Source of the DNA: an uncultured Anaerotignum sp.
GTDB lineage: Bacteria; Bacillota; Clostridia; Lachnospirales; Anaerotignaceae
Direction: 5' to 3'
Length of the DNA: 37,303 nt
Assembly: GCA_944381385.1 (NCBI GenBank)
Contig: CALWKZ010000078.1
Location: forward strand, 1-37,303
In this document: piece by piece, positions 11,669 through 28,153 of the stretch
Position numbering within the stretch: position 1 is the stretch's first letter
Layout: each line of letters opens with the position of its first letter
The notes under the pieces: model-generated
The model's database searches: none
Seen by the model: only the letters and a program-made list of their open reading frames with translations
Told to the model about the DNA's origin: nothing
Program-made: the position numbers and the translations under genes

Positions 11669-12145
11669 ATGTGGATCGCAGTGATCGTGGCTGTGCTGCT
11701 GGTAGGCTTGGACCAGGTTACAAAGTATCTGGCGCTGATGCAATTGAAGCCCGTAGGCAGTGTGACATTTGTGGAAGGATTTATGGATTTCACTTTTGTG
11801 GAGAACCGGGGCGTGGCCTTTGGAATGTTTTCCGGTCAGAAATGGTTCATACTGCTGCTGACAGGCATTATTGTGGCAGTGATGATATATTATTTCGTCC
11901 GCCTGCCCCACAGCAGGCAGTATCAATGGGTCAGAGGGGCCATAGTGCTGGTATTGGCCGGCGCTGTGGGCAATATGATCGACCGTATTTTTCGCGGGTA
12001 TGTGGTGGACTTTTTTGAATTTACCTTCTTTGACTGGCCCGTATTTAATGTAGCGGATATTTATGTCGTTGTGGGTGTGATCCTGCTGGCGATTTTGATA
12101 TTGTTTGTAATCAAAGAAGAACCAAAGGAAAAAAAGGAAGATTGA
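11669..12145 (+). CDS. lspA: Lipoprotein signal peptidase II
   Basis: LspA cleaves the signal peptide of prolipoproteins in the cytoplasmic membrane after lipidation. The 158-residue protein has four predicted membrane segments. The two catalytic aspartates are D114 (GYVVDFFEF) and D130 (FNVADIYV). Conserved VENRGVAFGMF and GNMIDRI motifs are also present. The ATG follows GGAGATGAGAAGAA. The rluD ATG begins one base after the lspA stop, so the two are almost certainly translated from one mRNA. Confidence 0.97.
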   Translation: MWIAVIVAVLLVGLDQVTKYLALMQLKPVGSVTFVEGFMDFTFVENRGVAFGMFSGQKWFILLLTGIIVAVMIYYFVRLPHSRQYQWVRGAIVLVLAGAVGNMIDRIFRGYVVDFFEFTFFDWPVFNVADIYVVVGVILLAILILFVIKEEPKEKKED

Positions 12146-12146
12146 T

Positions 12147-13061
12147 ATGGAATATTTAACTTTTGGGGCGGAGAAAGAGGATGTTGGTTGCCGCATCGAC
12201 CTGTTTCTGGCGGAAAATGTGGAAGATCTTTCCCGCAGCGGGGTACAGAAGCTGATTGCCTCCGGGCATATCCGCCTCAACGGCGGCAGCGTCAAAGCCA
12301 ATTATAAACTGCGGGAAAAGGATATCATCGACGTGGAGATCCCCGATGCTGTGGAACCGGAAATTTTGCCGGAGAATATCCCTCTGGATATCCTTTATGA
12401 GGATCAGGATGTCATTGTGGTGAACAAGCCCCAGGGCATGGTGGTCCATCCTGCGCCGGGCCATATGTCCGGCACTTTGGTAAATGCGCTACTATATCAC
12501 TGCGGCGGGGAATTATCGGGCATCAATGGGGAAAAACGCCCTGGCATTGTCCACCGTATCGACAGAGATACCTCCGGGGTACTGATGGTAGCCAAGAACA
12601 ATGCGGCGCATCAGTCTCTGGCGGAGCAGCTGGCGGTACATAGTATTACCAGAAAATACAATGCCATTGTGTATAACGGCTTTCCGGAAGAGGAGGGCAC
12701 TGTAGACCAGCCCATTGGCCGGAATCCCCAGGACAGGAAGAAAATGGCCGTGACCCAGAAGCACAGCCGCAGAGCCGTGACCCACTACAAAGTGCTGGAG
12801 CGGCTGGGGAATTTTACTCTGATAGAGGCGCAGCTGGAAACAGGACGTACCCATCAAATCCGTGTCCATATGACCTATATCGGCCATCCGCTTCTGGGGG
12901 ATACGGTGTATGGGCCGAAAAAACAGCCTTTCCCTCTGGAGGGACAGGCTCTTCACGCCAGAGTATTGGGATTTCGCCATCCCTCCACGGGAGAATATAT
13001 GGAATTTGAGGCGCCTTTGCCGGCCTACTTTGAGAAGCTGGTGGAACGGCTGAGAGGATGA
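12147..13061 (+). CDS. rluD: RluA-family 23S rRNA pseudouridine synthase (RluD-like)
   Basis: This enzyme isomerises specific uridines in large-subunit rRNA. The 304-residue protein has an N-terminal S4 RNA-binding domain (about 15-60: RIDLFLAENVEDLSRSGVQKLI) and a catalytic domain with HRIDRDTSG at 137-145, which holds the active-site aspartate. TGRTHQIRVHM is a further family motif. In Bacillus the same lspA-rluD(ylyB) pair is followed by pyrR-pyrP-pyrB-pyrC; here a pyrB-like/pyrC-like pair follows directly. Exact RluA/B/D specificity is not certain. Confidence 0.93.
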   Translation: MEYLTFGAEKEDVGCRIDLFLAENVEDLSRSGVQKLIASGHIRLNGGSVKANYKLREKDIIDVEIPDAVEPEILPENIPLDILYEDQDVIVVNKPQGMVVHPAPGHMSGTLVNALLYHCGGELSGINGEKRPGIVHRIDRDTSGVLMVAKNNAAHQSLAEQLAVHSITRKYNAIVYNGFPEEEGTVDQPIGRNPQDRKKMAVTQKHSRRAVTHYKVLERLGNFTLIEAQLETGRTHQIRVHMTYIGHPLLGDTVYGPKKQPFPLEGQALHARVLGFRHPSTGEYMEFEAPLPAYFEKLVERLRG

Positions 13062-13074
13062 AGGGAGGTTCATC

Positions 13075-14004
13075 ATGTCTTTATATCGCAAGGATTTTTT
13101 TGGACTGCGGGATCTGACGGCAGAGGATATCAGCTATATCCTCAGTACAGCGGAGACTATGAAATATATTTTGAACCAGAAAAATAAAAAAGCACCCCAT
13201 TTGCAGGGGAAATCCGTTATTATACTTTTTTATGAGCAGAGTGCCCGTGCAAAGCTGTCTTACGAGCTGGCGGCTCAGCATCTGAGCGCCAATGTGGTGG
13301 ATATGACCAATTCCGCTCATACCATGGAACGGGAGAGCTTGCAGGATATGGGTCAGCTGGTGGACCAGATGGGTGCTGACTTTATCATCCTGCGCCATCC
13401 TATGGCGGGAGCGCCTCGGCTGCTGGCGGAATGTGTAGAGGCCTCTGTCATCAATGCCGGCGATGGTTATAATGAAAACCCCGGTCAGTCTCTGCTGGAT
13501 CTGCTGACGATCAAGGAACGCAAAGGCGGCTTTGAGGGCCTGAAGGTGGCTATCGTGGGGGATTTGATCCACAGCCGTGTTTCCAAGAGCAATATCTGGG
13601 GTCTGACGAAGCTGGGGGCGGAGGTATGCGTTTCCGGCCCGCCGACGCTGCTTTTGCCGGAGATTGAGAAATTCGGCGTGGAGGTCCATTATGACGCCAG
13701 AGAGGCGGTCAATAACGCTGACGTTATTTTGACTACCCGGATGCGCCTGGAAACCCATGATAAGACCTTTCTGCCTTCTTTGGACGAATACAAGCGGTTC
13801 TTCCGTATTGACCACAATCTGCTGAAATACGCCAAAAAAGATGCTATCGTCATGCATCCCGGCCCGATTCAAAGAGGGATCGAGATTTCTGACGGTGTGA
13901 TTGACAGCCCACAGTGCATCATTAACGACCAGATCGCCAACAGTGTGGCGGTACGTATGGCGATGTTCTATATTCTTTCGCAGATGGGAGGCGGTCTTGT
14001 ATGA
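13075..14004 (+). CDS. Aspartate carbamoyltransferase-like protein with substituted active site
   Basis: The 309-residue product has the full ATCase fold length and scaffold: ILRHP (105-109), INAGDG (126-131), the R168 region HSRVSKSN and HPGPIQRGIEI (261-271). Several substrate-binding positions are changed. The carbamoyl-phosphate motif STRTR is SARAK (56-60). The 80s-loop lysine (KGE) is replaced in MERE (84-87). HPTQ is NPGQ (135-138). The RxQxER motif is TRMRLET (221-227). It therefore may not form carbamoyl-aspartate. It sits in the pyr position after rluD and overlaps the pyrC-like gene by 4 bp (ATGA), which argues for a joint complex. AGGGAGG precedes the ATG. Confidence 0.85.
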   Translation: MSLYRKDFFGLRDLTAEDISYILSTAETMKYILNQKNKKAPHLQGKSVIILFYEQSARAKLSYELAAQHLSANVVDMTNSAHTMERESLQDMGQLVDQMGADFIILRHPMAGAPRLLAECVEASVINAGDGYNENPGQSLLDLLTIKERKGGFEGLKVAIVGDLIHSRVSKSNIWGLTKLGAEVCVSGPPTLLLPEIEKFGVEVHYDAREAVNNADVILTTRMRLETHDKTFLPSLDEYKRFFRIDHNLLKYAKKDAIVMHPGPIQRGIEISDGVIDSPQCIINDQIANSVAVRMAMFYILSQMGGGLV

Positions 14005-15272
14005 AAACCATTCTGAAAAACTGTAAATTAGTGACGGCGCCTTATTCCCCGGAAAAACTGTACGATATTCTGATCGAGCAGGGAACCATTTCCCGGATCG
14101 GCGAACGTATCCGGGAGGAAGAAGCCAAAGTGATAGATGTGGGCGGCCATATGGTACTGCCTGGGTTTATTGATATGCACTGCAATATCTGCGAGCCTGG
14201 CTATGAAAATATCGAGGATATCGAAACGGTGTCCCGCAGTGCCATCCGCGGCGGATTTACCACCATCACCTGCGAGCCCAATACAAAGCCGGTCATTGAC
14301 AACAAGACCGTTGTGGAATATATCATCTCCAAATCCAAGGCGCAGGCGTTGGTGAATATCTATCCCTACGGCAGTATGTCCATGGGATGCGAAGGCAGAT
14401 CTATCGCGGAGATCGGGGAAATGTATGAGGCCGGTATTGTAGGCGTTTCCGACGGCGACGAGTTTCTGGACAGCGCGGCGCTGCTGTGCAATGTTATGCG
14501 GTACTCCAAGATGTTTGACCTGCCCATTATGACCCATTGTGAGGACCGGAGCCTTTCCGGCAAAGGCGTTATGAACGAAGGATATACGGCTACCTGCCTG
14601 GGACTGGCGGGAATGCCCAGAGAGGCGGAGGAGATTCAGGTTTCCCGGAATCTGATTCTGGCGGAGATTACAGGGGCCAGACTCCACATCGCCCATGTGA
14701 GCACGGCGGGCGCCGTTTCCATGATACGGGACGCCAAGAAAAAAGGTCTGGCGGTCACCTGCGAGACCTGTCCCCATTACTTCTCCTTAACGGAGGAGGC
14801 TGTGGAGGATTATAATACCTTTGCCAAGGTGAACCCGCCCCTGCGGACGGCAGAGGATGTGACAGCCATACTGGCTGGTATTGCTGATGGTACTATTGAC
14901 GTTATCGCCACAGGCCACAGCCCTACCAGCCTGACGGAAAAGAACAGAGAATTTGACCAGGCGGCCTATGGGATTTCCGCTCTGGAAACGGCTTTTTCCA
15001 TCTGCTATACCCGTTTGGTGGAAACGGGCGTGATTTCTATGGCGCGGCTGACGGAAATGCTGTCATCAAATCCGGCGAAAATATTGAATCTGGTCCATAA
15101 AGGACGGATCGCCGAGGGATACGACGCGGATCTGACGGTCATCGACTGTTCGGAATATTATCATATTGAGCCGAAGCATTTTGCTTCCAAGGCGAAATTC
15201 TCGCCTTTTGCCGGACAGCAGGTGAAGGGCAGGACCGTTTACACCATGGTAGGCGGGAAGATACTGCCGTAA
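14001..15272 (+). CDS. Dihydroorotase-like amidohydrolase lacking zinc and catalytic residues
   Basis: The 423-residue protein aligns end to end with type I dihydroorotase: PGFIDMH, EPG, GGFTTITCEPNT, THCED (H179), HIAHVST (H232), TCPHYFSLTEE (H259) and NPPLR. The zinc motif HxHxR is HCNIC (60-64), so the second His and the Arg are gone. The FTDDG metal site reads VSDGD (149-153). The ATDHAPH loop with the catalytic aspartate reads ATGHSPT (303-309). It resembles, by analogy, the inactive PyrC' subunit that supports ATCase in Pseudomonas. The 4-bp overlap with the preceding gene implies translational coupling. An intact frame argues against simple decay. Confidence 0.85.
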   Translation: MKTILKNCKLVTAPYSPEKLYDILIEQGTISRIGERIREEEAKVIDVGGHMVLPGFIDMHCNICEPGYENIEDIETVSRSAIRGGFTTITCEPNTKPVIDNKTVVEYIISKSKAQALVNIYPYGSMSMGCEGRSIAEIGEMYEAGIVGVSDGDEFLDSAALLCNVMRYSKMFDLPIMTHCEDRSLSGKGVMNEGYTATCLGLAGMPREAEEIQVSRNLILAEITGARLHIAHVSTAGAVSMIRDAKKKGLAVTCETCPHYFSLTEEAVEDYNTFAKVNPPLRTAEDVTAILAGIADGTIDVIATGHSPTSLTEKNREFDQAAYGISALETAFSICYTRLVETGVISMARLTEMLSSNPAKILNLVHKGRIAEGYDADLTVIDCSEYYHIEPKHFASKAKFSPFAGQQVKGRTVYTMVGGKILP

Positions 15273-15301: not shown

Positions 15302-18300
15302 ATGTATTTAAAAAGATTGGATATACAGGGCTTTAAATCCTTTCCTGAGAAAGTGAAGCTGGAATTTAATCCGGGAATCACGGCGGTGGTAGGCCCTAAC
15401 GGCAGCGGAAAGAGCAATGTCTCCGATGCTGTGCGCTGGGTGCTGGGGGAACAGCGGGCCAAGAGCCTGCGCGGCGACAAGATGGAGGATGTCATCTTTG
15501 CCGGTACGGAAAACCGGAAGCCCCAGGGCTTTGCGGAGGTAACCATCGTCATAGACAATCAGGATGGAAAACTGCCCATTGATTATACAGAAGTGCAGGT
15601 GACCAGACGTGTATTCCGCTCCGGCGAGAGTGAATACCGCATCAACGGCACTGCCTGCCGCCTGAAGGATATACAGGAGCTTTTTATGGATACAGGGGTG
15701 GGCCGGGAAGGCTACTCTATTATCGGACAGGGCAGGATCGATGAGATCCTTAACGCCAAAGGAGAGGAACGCCGCCGTATCTTTGAGGAGGCCACCGGTA
15801 TCGTAAAATATAAAACAAGAAAGAACGAGGCTGTGGCAAAGCTGGAAAAGGAGCAGCAGAACCTGACCAGAGTAGAGGATATCATTTCCGAACTGGAAAG
15901 CCAGCTGGGGCCTTTGGAGGAAGAGAGCCGCGTGGCGGAGGAATACCTGCGCCTGAAGGAACAACTGAAGGACGCGGAAATCTCCATGTTCCGGACCGAC
16001 GCCCAGCGGATGGAAACGGATCTGGAACGGCTGACCCAGCAGAAGGAAAACGCCCGAAGCCAGAGCACGGAAGCAGCGGAGGCCCAGGAAAGGGCCAAAG
16101 GGGACGTGCAGCGTCTGCGGGCGGCAAATGAGGAAAAAACCGCCGCTCTGCGCCGGATCAATGAGGATGTGGCCCAGGTGAAAGCGGATATTGAGAAAAA
16201 CGAGGGCCTGATCCGTCTGACGAAGGAACAGATGCAGCACGATGCCGACAATATGAGCCGTGTGGAGAAAGAGATTCTGGAGCGGATGCGCCAGCAGGAA
16301 GAGTCCCAAAAGGAACAGGGCGTCTGCCGCAGCCGCATTACGGCTCTGCGCATGACCATGAACCAGCAGCAGGAGCGTCTGGATCGGCTGGAGGAGGAAG
16401 GCCGCAGTCTGGAGGACGCCCTCAGCCAGAAGGAAACCAAGGCGGAGAGCTTTAAAGATGAGATCTTTGAGCAGATCCGAATCGGTACGGAGGCAAAAGG
16501 CGAGATCGCCAAGCAGGAGGCCATGAAGGAGCAGTTTCTGGCCAGAAAAGAACAGCTGGACGAGGAACTGGCCCATGGCAGGGGACGGCTGGAGGAACAG
16601 ACCGTTCATTTGCAGGTGCTGGAAAAGCAGGAAAAAGACCGCCGGGAATACATGGATTTTCTGACGAAGGAGATGGGGACCCTGGAAAAGGACAGCCAGC
16701 AGGCAGGCGAGATCAAGGAAAACGCCGAGCGGCAGCTGTCCAGACAGGAACGGCTCATTTCTGAGAAGCAGTCCAGACTTTCCCTGCTGTCGGAAATGGA
16801 AAAGGACCATGAGGGCTTTTTCAACAGCGTCAAAAACCTGCTGAATCTGCCGGATAAGGAAAAACGCGGCATCCACGGCGCCGTAGGCCAGCTGCTGCAG
16901 GTGGAAGAAGCCTACGAGACAGCCATTGAGGCGGCTTTAGGCGGCGCTATGCAGAACGTGGTGACCCAGACGGAGGAAGACGCCAGAGATGCCATTCAGT
17001 TTTTGAAGGATCACCGTATGGGCCGGGCGACTTTCCTGCCCATTACGGCGGTAAAAGGGAAACCGCTGGAGGGCCATCAGCCTATTCTGGACGAGAAAGG
17101 CGTTATCGGCACAGCGGATACGCTGGTGGGCTTCGCGGAGCAGTACCGAGGCATTGTGACTTATTTGCTGGGGCGTATCCTGGTGGTGGATCACTTGAAC
17201 GAAGCCGTAAGGCTGGCAAAGAAATACCAGCATAAGTATAAAATGGTCACTTTGGAAGGGGATATCATGAATCCCGGCGGCGCTATGACCGGCGGTTCCC
17301 GTTCCAATAAGACCACAGGCATTTTCGGCAGAGCCAGAGAGATCACGGCCCTGCGCCAGGAAATGGAAAAGCTGAACCAGCAGGCGGCCCAGATGAGGGA
17401 ACGTCTTCAGCTGGCGGAAGAGGACCAGCAGGAGATCGCCGAGCAGATCGTAGAGAAGAAACTGGAACAGCAGAAGCTGCTGGTGACCCTGCATGCCGCG
17501 CAGGAGCAGAAGGAAAAGAGCCAGACAGAGTGGCAGGAAACAAAAGAAAAGGTTCGCCTGATGGAAATCGAGGAAGAACAGCTGAAGGAACAGTTGGAAG
17601 TGGCGGAGCATGACATGGAAGCGGGCAGGAAGCGCCTGGCGGCTTCGGAGGCTCTGATGGCGGAGGTCAACGCCGCGCTGTCCTCCTATCAGGACGATCT
17701 GACGGAGGAGAGGGAAAAACGGAGCGCTTTGCAGGAGGAGATCACCGCTGTGAAGATCTCCATTTCCCAGAGCGGCCAGAGCGTTGCCGCCGCTGAGGAA
17801 AGCCTTCTGCGGCTGGAGCAGGAAGAGAAAAAAGCCGCCGCTGAGGCGGAAAGCCTGCGGGCGCAGAAGGAAGAACTGGAAAAAAGCGGCGGTCTGCGGC
17901 AGGATCAGCAGATTGATTTGCAGAAGGAAGGTCAGGAACTGCGGCAGAAGGAAGAGAACCTGAGCCGGCTGCTGGAAGAAACGACGGCGCAGATCTCCGC
18001 ACTGGCGGAGGAAATGGCGCAAAAGGAAGAAACAGCGCAGGAGCAGGCGGAAACAGTTTCCCGTCTGCAAAACGAGATCTTCCGTCTGGAGACCAGAATG
18101 GAAAAGGTTGCGGAGGAGCGGCAGAGGATCTATGACCGGATGTGGGAGGAGTATGAGATCACCTTCCAGACGGCGAAGGAATATGCCGAGGCCGATGTGC
18201 GCAGCTATTCCCAGCTGAGCCGCCTCGCCAAGGAATGGAAGGCACAGATGCGTGCCATGGGCGATGTGAATACAGGCTCTATTGCCAGGTACCAGGAGGT

Positions 18301-18871
18301 TAAGGAACGGTATTCCTTCCTTTCCGCCCAGAAAGAGGATATTCTGGCGGCGGAGGAAAAGCTCCGCCTGATTATTGAGGAGCTGTCCCAGCTGATGGAG
18401 CGGCAGTTCAAGGAGCAGTTTGCCGTGATCTCGGAGAATTTCAGCCATGTTTTCCAGGAAATGTTCGGCGGCGGCAAGGCTTATCTGCGGCTGAGCGAGG
18501 AGGACAGGGTGCTGGATTCGCCCATTGAGATCGTAGCGCAGCCTCCGGGCAAGAGTTTACAGAATATGCAGCTTTTATCCGGCGGGGAGCGGGCGCTGAC
18601 GGCGATTTCCATACTGTTTTCCATATTGAAGATGAAACCGTCGCCCTTCTGTATCCTGGACGAGATCGAAGCGGCGCTGGATGACGCCAATGTAAGAAGA
18701 TACGCGCAATTCCTGCGGCGTTTCTCCAAGGAGACGCAGTTTATCGTCATTACCCACCGAAAGGGTACAATGGAGTTCGCTGACGTTATGTATGGCGTAA
18801 CCATGCAGGAAAAAGGCATTTCCAAGCTGATTTCCGTGAATTTTACGGAACAGCAGGAGTATGTAGAATAA
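15302..18871 (+). CDS. smc: Chromosome segregation ATPase SMC
   Basis: SMC forms the condensin-like complex with ScpA and ScpB and organises and segregates the chromosome. The 1189-residue length is typical. Walker A is GPNGSGKS (31-38). Coiled coils span about 165-500 and 690-1010, around a hinge (about 520-680) with GAVGQLLQVEEAYETAIE and NPGGAMTGGS. The ABC signature LLSGGERALTAISI is at about 1090 and Walker B CILDEIEAALDD at about 1116. The ATG follows an AGGTG site. ftsY comes next, the usual smc-ftsY order; rnc, often upstream, is absent here. Confidence 0.98.
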   Translation: MYLKRLDIQGFKSFPEKVKLEFNPGITAVVGPNGSGKSNVSDAVRWVLGEQRAKSLRGDKMEDVIFAGTENRKPQGFAEVTIVIDNQDGKLPIDYTEVQVTRRVFRSGESEYRINGTACRLKDIQELFMDTGVGREGYSIIGQGRIDEILNAKGEERRRIFEEATGIVKYKTRKNEAVAKLEKEQQNLTRVEDIISELESQLGPLEEESRVAEEYLRLKEQLKDAEISMFRTDAQRMETDLERLTQQKENARSQSTEAAEAQERAKGDVQRLRAANEEKTAALRRINEDVAQVKADIEKNEGLIRLTKEQMQHDADNMSRVEKEILERMRQQEESQKEQGVCRSRITALRMTMNQQQERLDRLEEEGRSLEDALSQKETKAESFKDEIFEQIRIGTEAKGEIAKQEAMKEQFLARKEQLDEELAHGRGRLEEQTVHLQVLEKQEKDRREYMDFLTKEMGTLEKDSQQAGEIKENAERQLSRQERLISEKQSRLSLLSEMEKDHEGFFNSVKNLLNLPDKEKRGIHGAVGQLLQVEEAYETAIEAALGGAMQNVVTQTEEDARDAIQFLKDHRMGRATFLPITAVKGKPLEGHQPILDEKGVIGTADTLVGFAEQYRGIVTYLLGRILVVDHLNEAVRLAKKYQHKYKMVTLEGDIMNPGGAMTGGSRSNKTTGIFGRAREITALRQEMEKLNQQAAQMRERLQLAEEDQQEIAEQIVEKKLEQQKLLVTLHAAQEQKEKSQTEWQETKEKVRLMEIEEEQLKEQLEVAEHDMEAGRKRLAASEALMAEVNAALSSYQDDLTEEREKRSALQEEITAVKISISQSGQSVAAAEESLLRLEQEEKKAAAEAESLRAQKEELEKSGGLRQDQQIDLQKEGQELRQKEENLSRLLEETTAQISALAEEMAQKEETAQEQAETVSRLQNEIFRLETRMEKVAEERQRIYDRMWEEYEITFQTAKEYAEADVRSYSQLSRLAKEWKAQMRAMGDVNTGSIARYQEVKERYSFLSAQKEDILAAEEKLRLIIEELSQLMERQFKEQFAVISENFSHVFQEMFGGGKAYLRLSEEDRVLDSPIEIVAQPPGKSLQNMQLLSGGERALTAISILFSILKMKPSPFCILDEIEAALDDANVRRYAQFLRRFSKETQFIVITHRKGTMEFADVMYGVTMQEKGISKLISVNFTEQQEYVE

Positions 18872-18890: not shown

Positions 18891-20399
18891 ATGGGTTTAT
18901 TTGATTTTTTCAAGAAAAAAGAAGAAACGCCCGCTTCTGTGGAGAAGCAGGAGGATAAGATGGAGATCGGCGGTCTCACCATTGATACCCCAGAGGAGGA
19001 GGGAGAGATCGTCCTGAATGTGGACGAGAATCTTTCCACGACAACGGCCATCAATCAGGCGGTCCATGAAATCATGGATGAAGAGGATATCGAGTTCCAT
19101 GAAAAGGCAGGCGGCACGCTGTACCGGGAAAACGACGACCTGGCGGCGGAAGCGGAGCCGGAGGTGGAGATCGAGTTTTCCGAGGATGTGATGGTGCCGG
19201 AAAACGCCGAAGAAGCAGACCAGCTGCTGGAGGAAGTAACAGAAGCGGTGCTGGAGGGCATGGAAGCGGCGGCTGACGAGGAACGTCAGATCAAGGTGGA
19301 AACGTCCGACGAGGAGGTTTATATCGCCGATACGGAGGAAGAAGGCGCCCAATTTGTGGAAGAGCTGGCGGAGCTGGTAGAGGAACAACTGGAGGAAGCT
19401 GAGGAAACGCCGGAGGAGGCCGCTCCCGAGGAAACAGAGCCGGAAAGCGTAGCTGCGGAAGAACCGGCGGCGGAGAAAAAGGGCTTTTTTGCCCGCCTGA
19501 AGGCCGGACTGGATAAAACGAGAAAGAATATCCTGGGCGGTGTAGACAGTGTTCTGGGCAGCTTTACCAAGATCGACGAGGATTTGTTTGAGGAACTGGA
19601 GGAAGCCCTTATCATGGCGGATATGGGCGTACAGACCACCATGGACATTGTGGAGAATCTGCGCCAGAGAGTCAAACGGGAACGGGCTACAGACCCTTCC
19701 CTTATCAAAGGGATGCTGATCGATGAAATCACGGCCATTCTCCAGGAGGATGTGGAAGAGGCGGAAACACTGCCTTCTCCTTCCGTGATGCTGGTGATCG
19801 GCGTCAATGGTGTAGGCAAGACCACTACCATCGGCAAACTGGCCCATAATTTCAAGTCAGAGGGGAAAACCGTCCTTCTGGCGGCGGCGGATACCTTCCG
19901 GGCGGCGGCCATTGACCAGCTGGAGATCTGGGGAGAGAGAGCGGGCATTCCCGTTATCAAGCATGAGGAAAACGCCGACCCTGCCGCAGTGGTTTTTGAC
20001 GCGGTCCATGCCGCCAAAAACAAAAAGACGGATCTGCTGATCTGCGATACGGCGGGACGTCTCCATAACAAAAAGAACCTGATGGAAGAACTGCGGAAGA
20101 TTTCCCGTGTCATCGAAAAGGAATATCCCGGCGCCCATAGAGAAACTTATCTGGTGCTGGATGCCACCACGGGCCAGAATGCCCTGCAGCAGGCCAAGGT
20201 ATTTATGGAGGTGGCCGATATTACCGGCATCATCCTGACAAAGCTGGACGGTACGGCCAAGGGCGGTATCGTTGTGGCTATCAAAAGCGAGCTGAAAATC
20301 CCTGTGCGCTATATCGGCGTAGGGGAAGGCATCCAGGACCTGCAGAAATTCAACGCGGCGGAATTCGCCAAGGCTTTGTTTGGCGAAGGAGAGGAATAA
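18891..20399 (+). CDS. ftsY: Signal recognition particle receptor FtsY
   Basis: FtsY is the SRP receptor GTPase that brings ribosome-nascent chains to the membrane. The 502-residue protein starts with MGLFDFFKKKEE. A very acidic A region runs to about residue 190, followed by the NG domain. Key motifs are GVNGVGKTTTIGKLA (about 304), DTFRAAAIDQLEIW, DTAGRLHNKKNLMEEL (about 385) and TKLDGTAKGG (about 450). ATG 18891 was preferred over GTG 18879 because GAGGTG (18876-18881) is correctly placed for it. It follows smc by 19 bp and is probably in the same transcript. Confidence 0.97.
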   Translation: MGLFDFFKKKEETPASVEKQEDKMEIGGLTIDTPEEEGEIVLNVDENLSTTTAINQAVHEIMDEEDIEFHEKAGGTLYRENDDLAAEAEPEVEIEFSEDVMVPENAEEADQLLEEVTEAVLEGMEAAADEERQIKVETSDEEVYIADTEEEGAQFVEELAELVEEQLEEAEETPEEAAPEETEPESVAAEEPAAEKKGFFARLKAGLDKTRKNILGGVDSVLGSFTKIDEDLFEELEEALIMADMGVQTTMDIVENLRQRVKRERATDPSLIKGMLIDEITAILQEDVEEAETLPSPSVMLVIGVNGVGKTTTIGKLAHNFKSEGKTVLLAAADTFRAAAIDQLEIWGERAGIPVIKHEENADPAAVVFDAVHAAKNKKTDLLICDTAGRLHNKKNLMEELRKISRVIEKEYPGAHRETYLVLDATTGQNALQQAKVFMEVADITGIILTKLDGTAKGGIVVAIKSELKIPVRYIGVGEGIQDLQKFNAAEFAKALFGEGEE

Positions 20400-20409
20400 G
20401 GAGAATAAG

Positions 20410-21147
20410 ATGGAAGAACAAAATTCTGTTTATCGTTATGAGGAACCGAAGCAGCCGGAAAAACAGCGGCCGGTGCATACGACCCCCTATGGCCAGGAAA
20501 TACAGAAGCATATGCAAAAATGCTTCCCCGATCGGCAGGAAAAGGTCTTTTATGATAAGCGCAGCGATTTCCTGCAAATCGACATTCATCTGCTGGAAGC
20601 GCCTACCAAAAAGGATTTTCATGTGCTCTATACCGTAGGCATGAGCGCCCTGCCTATGACGCTGCCGGAAAATTTCTATCCGGAGTACCAAATGCTGGAG
20701 CGGGCGGAAATGATGGTGCTGCTGCCAGCGGAATGGAAGCTGGAGGAGCCGGCGGAAGGAGAGGAGTGGAACAATTCCCTCTGGTGGCCGGTGGATCTGC
20801 TGCAATATCTGGCCAGATTCCCTCATGAGTACGGCTCATGGCTGGGCTGGGGACATACCATTCCCAATTCTGACCAGTATGTGTCATATGACGAAAAGAC
20901 CACAAAGCTGTGCGGTACCATGCTGTCCTCCCTGAATGAGACGATTTCCATGTTTCATGCCAAGGACGGCACACTCATCAGCTTTTATACCCTTTTGCCC
21001 CTGTACCGGGAGGAGATCGACTTCCAGCAGAAAGAGGGCAGCGAGGCTCTTTTAAAGAAAATGGCGGACATCAATGGCTTTGGGATGATCGTATTCCCTG
21101 ACCGCCCCAACGTCTGCCTGGAGGAAAAGGAAGAGCCTGAGGAATAA
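20410..21147 (+). CDS. Suppressor-of-fused (SUFU) domain protein
   Basis: The 245-residue protein has a SUFU-like core at about residues 15-235. It shows FHVLYTVGMSALPMTLPE, ERAEMMVLLPAEWKL, the Trp-rich WWPVDLLQYLARFPHEYGSWLGWGHTIPN and a terminal FGMIVFPDRPNV. The bacterial function of this domain is not established; relatives are sometimes linked to toxin immunity. ATG 20410 has AAGGAG (20398-20403) overlapping the ftsY stop, which suggests coupling to ftsY. No toxin gene is nearby. A shared terminator follows. Confidence 0.75.
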   Translation: MEEQNSVYRYEEPKQPEKQRPVHTTPYGQEIQKHMQKCFPDRQEKVFYDKRSDFLQIDIHLLEAPTKKDFHVLYTVGMSALPMTLPENFYPEYQMLERAEMMVLLPAEWKLEEPAEGEEWNNSLWWPVDLLQYLARFPHEYGSWLGWGHTIPNSDQYVSYDEKTTKLCGTMLSSLNETISMFHAKDGTLISFYTLLPLYREEIDFQQKEGSEALLKKMADINGFGMIVFPDRPNVCLEEKEEPEE

Positions 21148-24653: not shown

Positions 24654-25109
24654 TCATAGAAAAATATGTACAGTGTTGTCAGTCTGTTCAGGTCTATCAG
24701 GCTGTAATGCGGAAAGTTCCTGTATGAATTTTTTCCATCCGATAGATGCGCCTACCACTTCCAAAAAAATATGTTCGTAAATCTCACGCAAAGACAGATA
24801 AGATATGACAACAAATATTTTAGAGTTGATTTTTTTCTTGCGAAAAACAGATGGAGAAACCGCGTTTCCAAATTGGCGCAGATCGGCGCCGGACAGACAG
24901 CGGACTTTTTTGATGCGGGAAAGAGCCAAAGAGGCAGTTCGATGCTGATACAAAGCGCTGCGGAAAAACAATACACCTTGTCGATGGTCAATGGTAACGT
25001 CGATGACTTCACCAGGTATTTTGCAAAGGCCCGGAATGCCTCCGGCATAAGAAAAACGAACATTACGACAGCCATTTTTATTTTTGCTGGTGAATTTAAG
25101 AAAAGTCAA
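24654..25109 (-). CDS. Uncharacterised 151-residue protein, possible PH-like/beta-rich domain
   Basis: No function is recognised. The start is TTG at 25109, supported by a very strong AAAGGAGG 6 bp upstream; this is the main evidence that the gene is real. The protein has a Gly-rich N-terminal strand pattern (VRFSYAGGIPGL), alternating segments VIDVTIDHRQGVLFF and ALSRIKKVRCLSG, a basic stretch FRKKKINSKIFVVISYLS and a terminal amphipathic helix (GWKKFIQELSAL). This order resembles small PH-like proteins in which a presumed strand domain precedes a KKxxK segment. The gene is AT-richer than its neighbours and lies between nrdG and tRNA-Leu. Confidence 0.6.
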   Translation of the reverse strand: MTFLKFTSKNKNGCRNVRFSYAGGIPGLCKIPGEVIDVTIDHRQGVLFFRSALYQHRTASLALSRIKKVRCLSGADLRQFGNAVSPSVFRKKKINSKIFVVISYLSLREIYEHIFLEVVGASIGWKKFIQELSALQPDRPEQTDNTVHIFL

Positions 25110-25158
25110 GAGAGACCTCCTTTTTTTAAACAGATTTCTATCTTTATCATAACAACAG

Positions 25159-25205
25159 AAAAAGCGTTTTTATACAGCCCCAAAAGCCGTGTAAAAACGC
25201 TTTTT
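25159..25205 (-). terminator. Terminator of nrdDG
   Basis: A roughly 20-bp stem pairs 25186-25205 with 25159-25178 (AAAAAGCGTTTTTA and TAAAAACGCTTTTT arms, with wobbles) around a short loop. On the minus strand it ends in a T run. The last base of the nrdG stop codon (25205) is part of the stem. Confidence 0.82.
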
Positions 25206-25699
25206 TATGCGTCCCAGAGAACGATCTCACCGCTTTCCAGGGATTTTTTCACGTCTATGGTACGCTGGTTCCGGCTGCCCTTAAAACGCAGCTCCAGAGA
25301 CCGTTCCTTTTCCAGAAAGGGGCCGTCTACCAGAATATCGGTAGCCTCCAGCAGTTTCTGCCTGTCCCCGCCTTCTGCCAGCAGAGCCTCCCAAGTATAG
25401 CCTGTGTAGGTCCATACATTCAAGCCGATCTCATGGGCACCCTTTGCCAGCTCTGTACAGGGCAGCGGCTGCTCAAAGGGATCGCCGCCGGAAAGGGTGA
25501 TTCCGTCCAGCAGGGGATTTTCCTTCGCTACCCGCAGGATATCCTCCGTATCAGACCAGAAGCCGCCTTCGGGATCATGGGTCTGCGGATTATGACAGCC
25601 GGGACAATGGTGAGGGCATCCCTGTGTAAATACAGTCAATCGGAATCCGGCGCCGTCAACGATAGAATCGTTGACGACACCGCTGATCTTAATTCTCAT
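25205..25699 (-). CDS. nrdG: Anaerobic ribonucleoside-triphosphate reductase activating protein
   Basis: NrdG is a radical-SAM protein that generates the glycyl radical on NrdD. The 164-residue length is standard. The CxxxCxxC cluster motif is TQGCPHHCPGCHNP with C28, C32 and C35. SGGDPFEQP is the SAM-binding GGE-like motif. It lies 6 bp after the nrdD stop and is co-transcribed with it. A terminator overlaps its stop codon. Confidence 0.96.
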   Translation of the reverse strand: MRIKISGVVNDSIVDGAGFRLTVFTQGCPHHCPGCHNPQTHDPEGGFWSDTEDILRVAKENPLLDGITLSGGDPFEQPLPCTELAKGAHEIGLNVWTYTGYTWEALLAEGGDRQKLLEATDILVDGPFLEKERSLELRFKGSRNQRTIDVKKSLESGEIVLWDA

Positions 25700-25705
25700 G
25701 ATTTA

Positions 25706-28054
25706 TCAATCTTCCTTCGGTTCCAGTTTTACTTCCGTAACGATGGAATGTTTTACTCTGTCACGGACCTCGGCGCGCTTGGCGTTGTTAAAACGATCCA
25801 GAGTGCCTACCAAATAACCTGTGATACGGCGGATTCTCTGGAAGCCCATATCGCCGTCTGTTTCAGCTCTGCCGCATTTCGGGCAGGTATCGCCGATAAT
25901 GCCGTTGTAGCCGCAGATGGGGTCACGGTCTACGGGATGATTGATGGAGCCGTAGCCAACGCCCTGGGACTTCATGTAACGGATGATTTTTTCAAAAGCG
26001 TCCAGATTTGTAGTAGGGTCGCCGTCCAGTTCCACATAGGTGATATGGCCCGCATTGGTCAGCGCGTGGTAAGGGGCCTCCAGCTGGATCTTCTTATAAG
26101 CGCTGATGGGGTAGTATACGGGAATATGGAAGCTGTTGGTATAGTATTCTCTGTCGGTGACGCCTTCGATGGAGCCAAAGCGTTTCCGGTCGATTTCCAC
26201 AAATCTGCCGGAAAGGCCTTCTGCGGGCGTTGCCAGCAGAGTAAAGTTCAGTTTCATTTTCTGGGAAATATCGTCCAGACGGTTACGCATATGTCCAATG
26301 ATATCCAGACCCAGGTTCTGCGCTACTTCGCTTTCTCCGTGGTGTACGCCGATAAGTGCCTTCAATGTTTCCGCCAGACCGATAAAGCCTACGGAAAGGG
26401 TGCCGTTTTTCAGGACTTCTCTGACCTCATCATTATATCCCAGCTTATCGCTGTTGATCCAGATGCCTTCGCCCATCAGGAAAGGATAGTTGTGTACTTT
26501 TTTCTTTGCCTGGATCTCAAAGCGTTCCAGCAGCTGCTCTACCACCAGATCGATCTTATGATCCAGTTCGTTAAAGAACCAGTCTACGTTTTTATTTGCC
26601 ATGATGGCGATACGGGGCAGGTTGATGCTGGTAAAGCTCAGGTTGCCTCTGCCGGGGGTGATGGCGTTTTCGGGATCATACACATTTGCCATAACGCGGG
26701 TACGGCAGCCCATGTAAGCGATCTCTGTTTCCGGATGGCCTTCCTTATAGAATTTCAGGTTGTAAGGCGCGTCCTGGAAGGAGAAATTAGGGAACAGCCG
26801 TTTCGCGCTGACACGGCAGGCCAGCTTGAACAGGTCGTAGTTTGGTTCCCCGGGATTAAAGTTGACGCCTTCCTTTACACGGAAGATCTGGATGGGGAAA
26901 ATAGCGGTCTCGCCGCTGCCCAGACCTGCTTCCGTTACCAGCAGCATGTTTTTCATGACCATTCTGGCCTCTGTAGAGGTATCCATACCATAGTTGATGG
27001 AGGAGAAAGGCGTCTGCGCGCCGGCACGGCTGTGCATGGTGTTCAGATTATGCAGCAGGGCCTCCATAGCCTGATATGTTTCCTTGTCTGTTTCTTCTGT
27101 GGATTTTTTTACAGTGAAAGCCTGTGCCTTCTGGTAAATTTCCGCAGGGATACCGATTTCTTCCGCCAGCTTCGCTTCGGCGTTGTCATAGGTCTCATTT
27201 TTATCCAATGTAGGGGTCAGACCCATGGCCTCCAGTTTCTGGAAGGCTTCCCGCATAGCGTTGGCGTGCTCCTCGCAGTCCATAACCTCAATCAGGGAGG
27301 TCAGGTTGGAACGATACCGTTTTTTGTATGTTTTTGCTACGCCGGGCGCCATACCGTAGTCGAAATTAGGGATGGACTGGCCGCCGTGCTGGTCGTTCTG
27401 GTTGGACTGGATAGCGATGCAGGCAAGGGAAGCGTAGCTGGAGATGCTGTTGGGCTCCCGCAATACGCCGTGGCCCGTGGAAAAACCGCCGTTGAACAGC
27501 TTGGTCAGGTCGATCTGACAGCAGGTGGTGGTCAGTGTATAGAAATCCAGGTCATGGATATGGATGTCGCCGTTTCTGTGAGCTTCGGAGTGTTTGGGAT
27601 TCAAAACATAGGACTCATAGAAATGCTTTGCGCCCTCGGAGCCATATTTCAGCATGGAACCCATGGCTGTATTGCCGTCGATATTGGCGTTTTCCCGCTT
27701 GATATCGCTGTCCGTTGCGTCTTTATAGGTGATGTCCTCAAAGGTTTTCATGAGGCGGTCATTCATATTGCGGATGCGTGTGCGTTCTGCCCGGTACAGG
27801 ATATAGGCTTTTGCTGTGCGTACAAAACCGTGCTCGATCAGTACCTTTTCCACAACATCCTGAATATCCTCTACGGAAGGGGATTCAATACCCTTTTCCT
27901 CAAAATAGTTGGAAACCTCCTGGGCCATTTCCAGACAGGTAGCGTAGCTTTTGGCGCCGCTGGTGGCCTCAAATGCTTTTTCAATGGCATTGGCGATTTT
28001 GTTGATATCAAAATATACCGTTCTGCCGTCTCGTTTTTTGATCGTTGTTATCAT
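25706..28054 (-). CDS. nrdD: Anaerobic (class III) ribonucleoside-triphosphate reductase
   Basis: NrdD makes deoxyribonucleotides from NTPs without oxygen. The 782-residue protein has an N-terminal ATP-cone (about 1-90, KKRDGRTVYFDINKIANAI), the catalytic barrel, a C-terminal four-cysteine zinc site (CGYNGIIGDTCPKCGR) and the glycyl-radical loop ITGYLVGTLDRF with the glycine at about residue 746. ATG 28054 follows AGAGGG with good spacing; the longer in-frame start lacks a site. Its promoter overlaps NrdR boxes, and nrdR lies nearby on the opposite strand. Confidence 0.97.
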   Translation of the reverse strand: MITTIKKRDGRTVYFDINKIANAIEKAFEATSGAKSYATCLEMAQEVSNYFEEKGIESPSVEDIQDVVEKVLIEHGFVRTAKAYILYRAERTRIRNMNDRLMKTFEDITYKDATDSDIKRENANIDGNTAMGSMLKYGSEGAKHFYESYVLNPKHSEAHRNGDIHIHDLDFYTLTTTCCQIDLTKLFNGGFSTGHGVLREPNSISSYASLACIAIQSNQNDQHGGQSIPNFDYGMAPGVAKTYKKRYRSNLTSLIEVMDCEEHANAMREAFQKLEAMGLTPTLDKNETYDNAEAKLAEEIGIPAEIYQKAQAFTVKKSTEETDKETYQAMEALLHNLNTMHSRAGAQTPFSSINYGMDTSTEARMVMKNMLLVTEAGLGSGETAIFPIQIFRVKEGVNFNPGEPNYDLFKLACRVSAKRLFPNFSFQDAPYNLKFYKEGHPETEIAYMGCRTRVMANVYDPENAITPGRGNLSFTSINLPRIAIMANKNVDWFFNELDHKIDLVVEQLLERFEIQAKKKVHNYPFLMGEGIWINSDKLGYNDEVREVLKNGTLSVGFIGLAETLKALIGVHHGESEVAQNLGLDIIGHMRNRLDDISQKMKLNFTLLATPAEGLSGRFVEIDRKRFGSIEGVTDREYYTNSFHIPVYYPISAYKKIQLEAPYHALTNAGHITYVELDGDPTTNLDAFEKIIRYMKSQGVGYGSINHPVDRDPICGYNGIIGDTCPKCGRAETDGDMGFQRIRRITGYLVGTLDRFNNAKRAEVRDRVKHSIVTEVKLEPKED

Positions 28055-28105
28055 ACCCAACCCTCTTTCTGCGTCCGTCGCGCTGTATTTGCTGTTTCTT
28101 ATGCA

Positions 28106-28121
28106 ACACAAGATATAGTTC
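28106..28121 (-). promoter_or_regulatory. NrdR box 1 (nrdD-proximal)
   Basis: ACACAAGATATAGTTC resembles the 16-bp NrdR box (ACACWATATMTWGTGT). Its AGATAT core (28111) is 32 bp from the core of the second box, the three-turn spacing typical of paired NrdR sites. Confidence 0.72.
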
Positions 28122-28137
28122 CTGTATTTGTGTTCAG

Positions 28138-28153
28138 TGTATAGATATTGTAG
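28138..28153 (-). promoter_or_regulatory. NrdR box 2 (over the -10 box)
   Basis: TGTATAGATATTGTAG is the second NrdR-box-like site. It overlaps the -10 hexamer of the nrdD promoter (28147-28152), as expected for a repressor. Confidence 0.72.

Follow-up and report, generated by a model that had tools for sequence, protein, structure and literature searches.

The question raised by this locus is what two adjacent genes resembling pyrB and pyrC do in a genome that has canonical copies of both elsewhere, when the active sites of both encoded proteins are altered. The window, meaning the whole 37,303-nucleotide stretch of DNA that was analysed, comes from contig C78 of a 1.9 Mb genome that is 81% complete. 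On its plus strand, the gene of a putative ATCase-fold pseudoenzyme of 309 amino acids (ATC', 13075..14004) overlaps by 4 bp (ATGA) that of a putative type-I dihydroorotase-fold pseudoenzyme of 423 amino acids (DHO', 14001..15272). The pair lies 3' of the conserved genes lspA (11669..12145, plus strand) and rluD (12147..13061, plus strand, 13 bp ahead of ATC'), the latter marking an ancestral lspA-rluD-pyr locus, and 5' of smc (15302..18871, plus strand, 29 bp after DHO') and ftsY. The motifs, intact frames and 4 bp overlap quoted in the earlier note were all confirmed in these two ORFs, and sequencing noise was excluded by the presence of identical altered motifs, as intact ORFs, in same-genus genomes and throughout the family.

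Family profiles and structure models agree on the identity of the two folds. ATC' scored 266.9 bits against the ATCase profile TIGR00670 (cut-off 236.95), and its single-chain AlphaFold model (mean pLDDT 87.9) best matched, among PDB entries, the B. subtilis ATCase and chain 3d6n_B of Aquifex (TM ~0.86, Foldseek). DHO' reached 397.3 bits against the dihydroorotase profile TIGR00857 (cut-off 279.05), with a single-chain model (mean pLDDT 93.4) closest to the B. anthracis and Aquifex DHOases (TM 0.95-0.96). The best structural relatives found by sequence were likewise ATCases and type-I DHOases, respectively, and by these scores and matches both folds are whole. Because both proteins pass the curated family cut-offs, misannotation is likely; about one fifth of the sampled genomes of the order carry such a second 'pyrB' and 'pyrC', which distorts metabolic models.

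Canonical pyrB and pyrC, for which the earlier note had proposed a search of the rest of the genome, were both located on contig C21. There, a pyrB of the E. coli type, its motifs complete (STRTR, SASKGES, HPTQ, RVQRER), stands beside pyrF and pyrE, and pyrC has HTHLREP, SDDG and ATDHAPH; argF is on contig C18. ATC' is 32% identical to this PyrB and DHO' 36% identical to this PyrC. Since canonical pyrB and pyrC are in the same genome, ATC' and DHO' are extra copies, and a role of ATC' as the only ATCase of the cell is ruled out. In same-genus genomes, PyrI is encoded beside this type of pyrB, at the point where the contig of the present assembly stops. Between C21 (L002, L006) and contig C46 of the related genome G006 (L183), canonical pyrB and pyrC have pS values of 0.21-0.24, about half of those of the window genes (0.42-0.62); the pyr cluster may possibly have been exchanged recently within the genus.

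Other genomes with the altered pair have a second, canonical class-A pyrB-pyrC pair elsewhere instead. A canonical ATCase motif was found elsewhere in 73 of the 80 altered-pair genomes, and HMM searches of the remaining seven recovered a canonical ATCase in G021 and G098. The same searches detected none in the fragmented assemblies G033, G059, G159 and G216, all four of which have a canonical pyrC. In the last genome, G067 (93% complete), pyrB, pyrC, pyrE and pyrF were not detected apart from the altered pair. Both altered genes are still there, with an open ATC' and a DHO' interrupted by a 0.8 kb insertion scoring as a group II intron. The insert of this small genome (L214, 7195-7960) matches RF02004 and RF00029 within DHO', and both exon parts are open, the second meeting the contig end.

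Every same-genus genome and the greater part of the family have adjacent pairs with the same altered motifs, and within one order of Clostridia such pairs span many families. Among the named carriers are Anaerotignum sp. MSJ-24, Clostridium sp. MD294/ASF356, a Tyzzerella sp. MAG, Vallitalea and a Defluviitaleaceae MAG. The diagnostic DNA pattern for GDGx(N/H)xNP matched 95 of the 392 genomes sampled from the order, with about 85 matches believable by sequence, and a stricter form matched none of the 188 genomes sampled from the other orders in this class. Wherever one contig holds both genes they lie side by side, which is the adjacency of ATC and DHO genes typical of class A. The frames are intact in nearly all relatives, with a frameshift or insertion in DHO' of two genomes only. 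One of these, Clostridia bacterium UC5.1-1D10 (G001, L035/L042), has a frameshifted DHO' next to an intact ATC', a single case that may be a sequencing error.

In trees of ATC, of DHO and of both combined, one branch separates the 39 altered from the 40 canonical rows (SH-aLRT 99-100, short search), and the same bipartition persists with 90 diagnostic columns removed. Because all 39 altered pairs fall on one side of this branch, these trees point to one ancient origin of the altered pair within the order and not to repeated decay; repeated independent loss is contradicted by the bipartition, also without the diagnostic columns. An extremely divergent pair at the same rluD locus in G045 (L170, 7145-8062 and 5854-7155) has a branch length of ~1.7-1.8 and more pocket residues changed, which could reflect either drift or a second change of function.

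The suggestion of the earlier note that the pair occupies the old pyr locus is well supported, because in other Clostridia the canonical pair sits in the same slot, in the order lspA-rluD-pyrR-(uraA)-pyrB-pyrC (pyrR and uraA being assigned there by our own reading of the sequences), and basal members of the altered clade retain pyrR and uraA. Specifically, pyrR-like and uraA-like genes lie between rluD and ATC' in L067 (Vallitaleaceae) and G055, and have been lost in the family of the window. Rfam searches identified a PyrR RNA element at the canonical locus in L057 and L068. None was detected in the window, nor at gathering score in L067, L080 and L177, even though pyrR-like genes lie ahead of the pair in L067 and L177. 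For lack of such an element, PyrR control of the pair in the window was discarded, and in this family the pair would probably be made together with rluD and smc.

The active site of ATC' departs from that of ATCases in four segments, all on the plus strand. SARAK (13240..13254, residues 56-60) replaces STRTR/K, with T53 and T55 lost and S52 and R54 kept. The 80s loop, S80...K84GES in ATCases, reads SAHTMERES (13312..13338, containing MERE) and lacks both the catalytic Lys84 and Ser80. NPGQ (13477..13488, residues 135-138) stands for HPTQ, His134 being changed to Asn and Gln137 kept, and TRMRLET (13735..13755, residues 221-227) stands for (L)RxQxER, with Gln231 lost and Arg229 kept. Across 38 altered sequences, counted with the very divergent L170 set aside, H134 is Asn in every one, S52 is found in 33, and R54, R105, Q137, R167 and the HPG turn are kept in at least 90%, with losses at T53, T55, S80, K84 and Q231.

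These losses affect motifs of wide validity. SxRT, in the form Fx(E/K/N/D/A/Q)xSxRT, and HPxQ occur in all known transcarbamylases (PMC4581275), and every known ATCase depends on a Ser and a Lys that the adjacent subunit contributes (PMC7053772). In the window, the phosphate-binding motif is FYEQSARA (T55 is present in only 2/38 sequences), HPxQ is NPGQ, Ser80 and Lys84 of the 80s loop are absent (Lys in only 4/39 rows), and the aspartate-binding RxQxER motif is RMRLET (Q231 kept in 11/39 rows). Canonical invariants that are lost or relaxed in ATC' were enriched for active-site positions (Fisher p 0.036, with our own choice of sites and the sequences treated as given). Judged by residues only, ATC' is not a competent ATCase chain of the class A2 type. 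It would retain a modified anion pocket and is very probably unable to carbamoylate aspartate, and since H134 is replaced by Asn in 38/38 sequences while R54, R105, Q137 and R167 stay, the pocket looks re-tuned rather than dead.

In DHO', HCNIC (14178..14192, plus strand, residues 60-64) replaces HxHxR, removing the zinc ligand His63 and the substrate-binding Arg65 and creating a new CxxC. SDGD (14448..14459, plus strand, within VSDGD, 149-153) replaces S(D/E)DG and places a Gly at zinc ligand Asp153 when aligned ungapped; a one-residue shift against SDDG would keep the zinc Asp, with H63 and R65 lost either way. ATGHSPT (14907..14927, plus strand, residues 303-309) replaces ATDHAPH, with loss of Asp305 and the last His. 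The zinc ligands of the Aquifex enzyme are His61, His63 and Asp153, with His180 and His232 dispensable (PMC3880350). At the three ligand positions the window has H, N and G, and no altered sequence has all three ligands, the call at Asp153 again requiring the ungapped alignment. Position 305 is Gly in 30 of 38 sequences and Asp in three, the substrate-Arg position (R64) is Arg in none of the 38, and the remaining metal residues vary (H60 in 27/38, H179 in 25/38, H232 in 21/38). Lost or relaxed canonical invariants were again enriched for active-site positions (Fisher p 0.001 at a 90% threshold, with our own choice of sites and the sequences treated as given). From these residues we infer that DHO' is metal-free and inactive, and the view of the earlier note that both active sites are altered holds: T53, T55, K84, H134 and Q231 are lost from ATC', and H63, R65, D153 and D305 from DHO', which would imply loss of catalysis.

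The new CNIC segment (window 14181-14192; C61 and C64), together with C91, C180, C254 and C257, lies near the former metal pocket and could represent a redox or other metal site. As a new cysteine metal site it was rejected, for C61 is present in 38/38 sequences but C64 in only 28/38.

A single origin, long ago, and the strong selection that has maintained the pair in many families make a new role probable, one that is non-enzymatic or at least different. We propose that an ancient duplicate or displaced pyrB-pyrC pair of class A (Aquifex/Pseudomonas-type ATC with type-I DHO) lost catalysis in both chains a single time, in an ancestor belonging to this order, and may have been retained as a non-catalytic, Aquifex-like ATC-DHO complex. 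With its metal site gone, DHO' would be a structural subunit, for which the pDHO of the Pseudomonas ATCase is a precedent (PMC7053772). ATC' would form a trimer with an altered anion or carbamoyl-phosphate pocket, in which R54, R105, Q137 and R167 are kept, H134 is Asn and the Lys84 loop is gone. The fixed Asn at one catalytic position and the retained phosphate-side arginines argue for a kept ligand, and the complex may bind a phosphorylated metabolite without turnover and act as a sensor or scaffold. That the pair forms such a non-catalytic complex, derived from a class A pair and serving in ligand sensing or scaffolding, we rate at even odds. The narrower proposal, namely that the two subunits of a former enzyme complex became non-catalytic together and were repurposed across many families of the order as a sensor of a metabolite (e.g. 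carbamoyl-phosphate or phosphate), kept even where the pyrimidine pathway appears gone, is more tentative, and we would hold it to be somewhat improbable as it stands.

Two other readings must be weighed against a non-catalytic, ligand-binding complex, and we regard each as unlikely. The first is a new enzyme, in which the pair, or ATC' alone, acts through its remodelled site on another phosphorylated or carbamoyl substrate. The retained pocket residues, the invariant H134N change and the very strong constraint on ATC' would suit such an enzyme, but the SxRT and HPxQ motifs common to all known transcarbamylases (PMC4581275) are missing, and DHO' lacks zinc ligands while its former metal residues vary freely. 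For the same reasons, namely the loss of these motifs and of the DHOase zinc ligands (PMC3880350), the idea of the earlier note that the complex acts on another carbamoyl or ureido substrate found no support. It counts against a fully non-catalytic complex, however, that part of the active-site residues persist; they would allow weak or altered catalysis, above all in Vallitalea-like members, which retain an RxQxER-like motif. The second reading is a pure scaffold, that is, a hollow ATC'-DHO' dodecamer that binds no ligand and assembles or stabilises other proteins, such as the active pyrimidine enzymes or the products of neighbouring genes. It is consistent with the preserved fold and glycine/proline framework and with the known Aquifex ATC-DHO dodecamer (PMC3880350, PMC7053772). 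A bare scaffold, however, would not be expected to conserve the pocket arginines and Asn135 so strongly, the downstream neighbours vary between families, and the pair is kept in G067, where pyrB, pyrC, pyrE and pyrF were not found.

That the pair is an active isoenzyme with unusual residues, having residual or conditional ATCase/DHOase activity, is very improbable: NCBIfam scores for both enzymes exceed the cut-offs and ATC' keeps S52, R54, R105, Q137 and R167, but the catalytic residues listed above are lost from both chains, the 80s loop that should supply Lys and Ser to the adjacent subunit in every known ATCase (PMC7053772) is scrambled, and a canonical set is present in the genome.

Selection on the pair was assessed from dN and dS (Nei-Gojobori), with synonymous sites near saturation in the wider comparisons. 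Between the window and G006, ATC' has a dN of 0, with no amino-acid change in 309 codons at a pS of 0.49, and dN/dS is 0.05 for DHO', 0.034 for RluD, 0.072 for Smc, 0.071 for FtsY and 0.044 for canonical pyrC. In five of six other comparisons within the genus or family, dN of ATC' was at or below that of the active pyrB, the exception being G002. Purifying selection on ATC' is thus very strong. Where the active set of a genome is class A as well, its members diverge more slowly than ATC' and DHO' do (e.g., identities of 71% for ATC' vs 84% and of 56% for DHO' vs 75%); therefore, in those lineages the pair is constrained, but less so than the class-A enzyme. A decaying relic of the old pyr operon, to which the DHO' frameshift in L035/L042, the group II intron in G067 and this faster divergence might point, is the least credible reading, given a single ancient origin, maintenance in ~85 sampled genomes of many families and dN/dS values of 0.00 (ATC') and 0.05 (DHO'); simple decay, which the earlier note had named among the outcomes that would refute its view, is contradicted by these ratios, the single origin and frames intact in nearly all relatives.

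Several known systems resemble a non-catalytic ATC'-DHO' complex in part. The class A2 ATCase of Pseudomonas (PyrB with the inactive PyrC'/pDHO; PMC7053772) likewise combines an ATCase-fold chain with a type-I DHO-fold chain devoid of DHOase residues and encoded together with it, but its ATCase is active and is the cell's enzyme, whereas in the window the alteration extends to the ATCase partner, and the work falls to a separate canonical ATCase. The class A1 ATC-DHO dodecamer of Aquifex aeolicus (PDB 3d6n, 4bjh; PMC3880350) is the closest quaternary template for both chains, which were modelled singly and for which class A would predict a 6+6 complex; in Aquifex, however, both subunits are catalytically active, with a full set of zinc and substrate ligands. 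The canonical pyrB-pyrC of the rluD-pyrR-uraA-pyrBC operon in other Clostridia (e.g., L057, L062, L068) is the positional and sequence counterpart of the pair, but has STRTR, HPTQ, RxQxER, HxHxR and DHAPH intact and pyrR present, with the RNA element noted above in two of these loci. Lastly, the inactive DHO-like domain of fungal CAD-like Ura2 and the pseudo-dihydropyrimidinases CRMP/DPYSL share an amidohydrolase fold without metal site in a structural or signalling role, although they are eukaryotic, of independent origin and without an inactive ATCase partner.

In the open-access literature, no described pseudo-ATCase was found, nor a pair with both partners altered, in agreement with the earlier note, which knew of none; searches for Anaerotignum with ATCase and for ASF356 proteomics returned nothing of use. 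Inactive DHO subunits are already known, but these searches found no described pair whose ATCase partner is altered too and which exists alongside a working set. With its one event, its conserved modified pocket and the strong selection on it, the pair would be a clean example of an entire enzyme complex converted to another use, and the same cells offer related active copies for comparison.

As to the surroundings of the pair, smc is the downstream neighbour in the family of the window and not in more distant members, and a functional link to smc/ftsY is unsupported because the downstream genes differ outside the family. Further along the window, two ORFs at 24771-25400 (209 aa) and 25433-28144 (903 aa) had no Pfam match, and a SUFU-domain protein, an unusual neighbour, is encoded at 20380-21147, directly 3' of ftsY.
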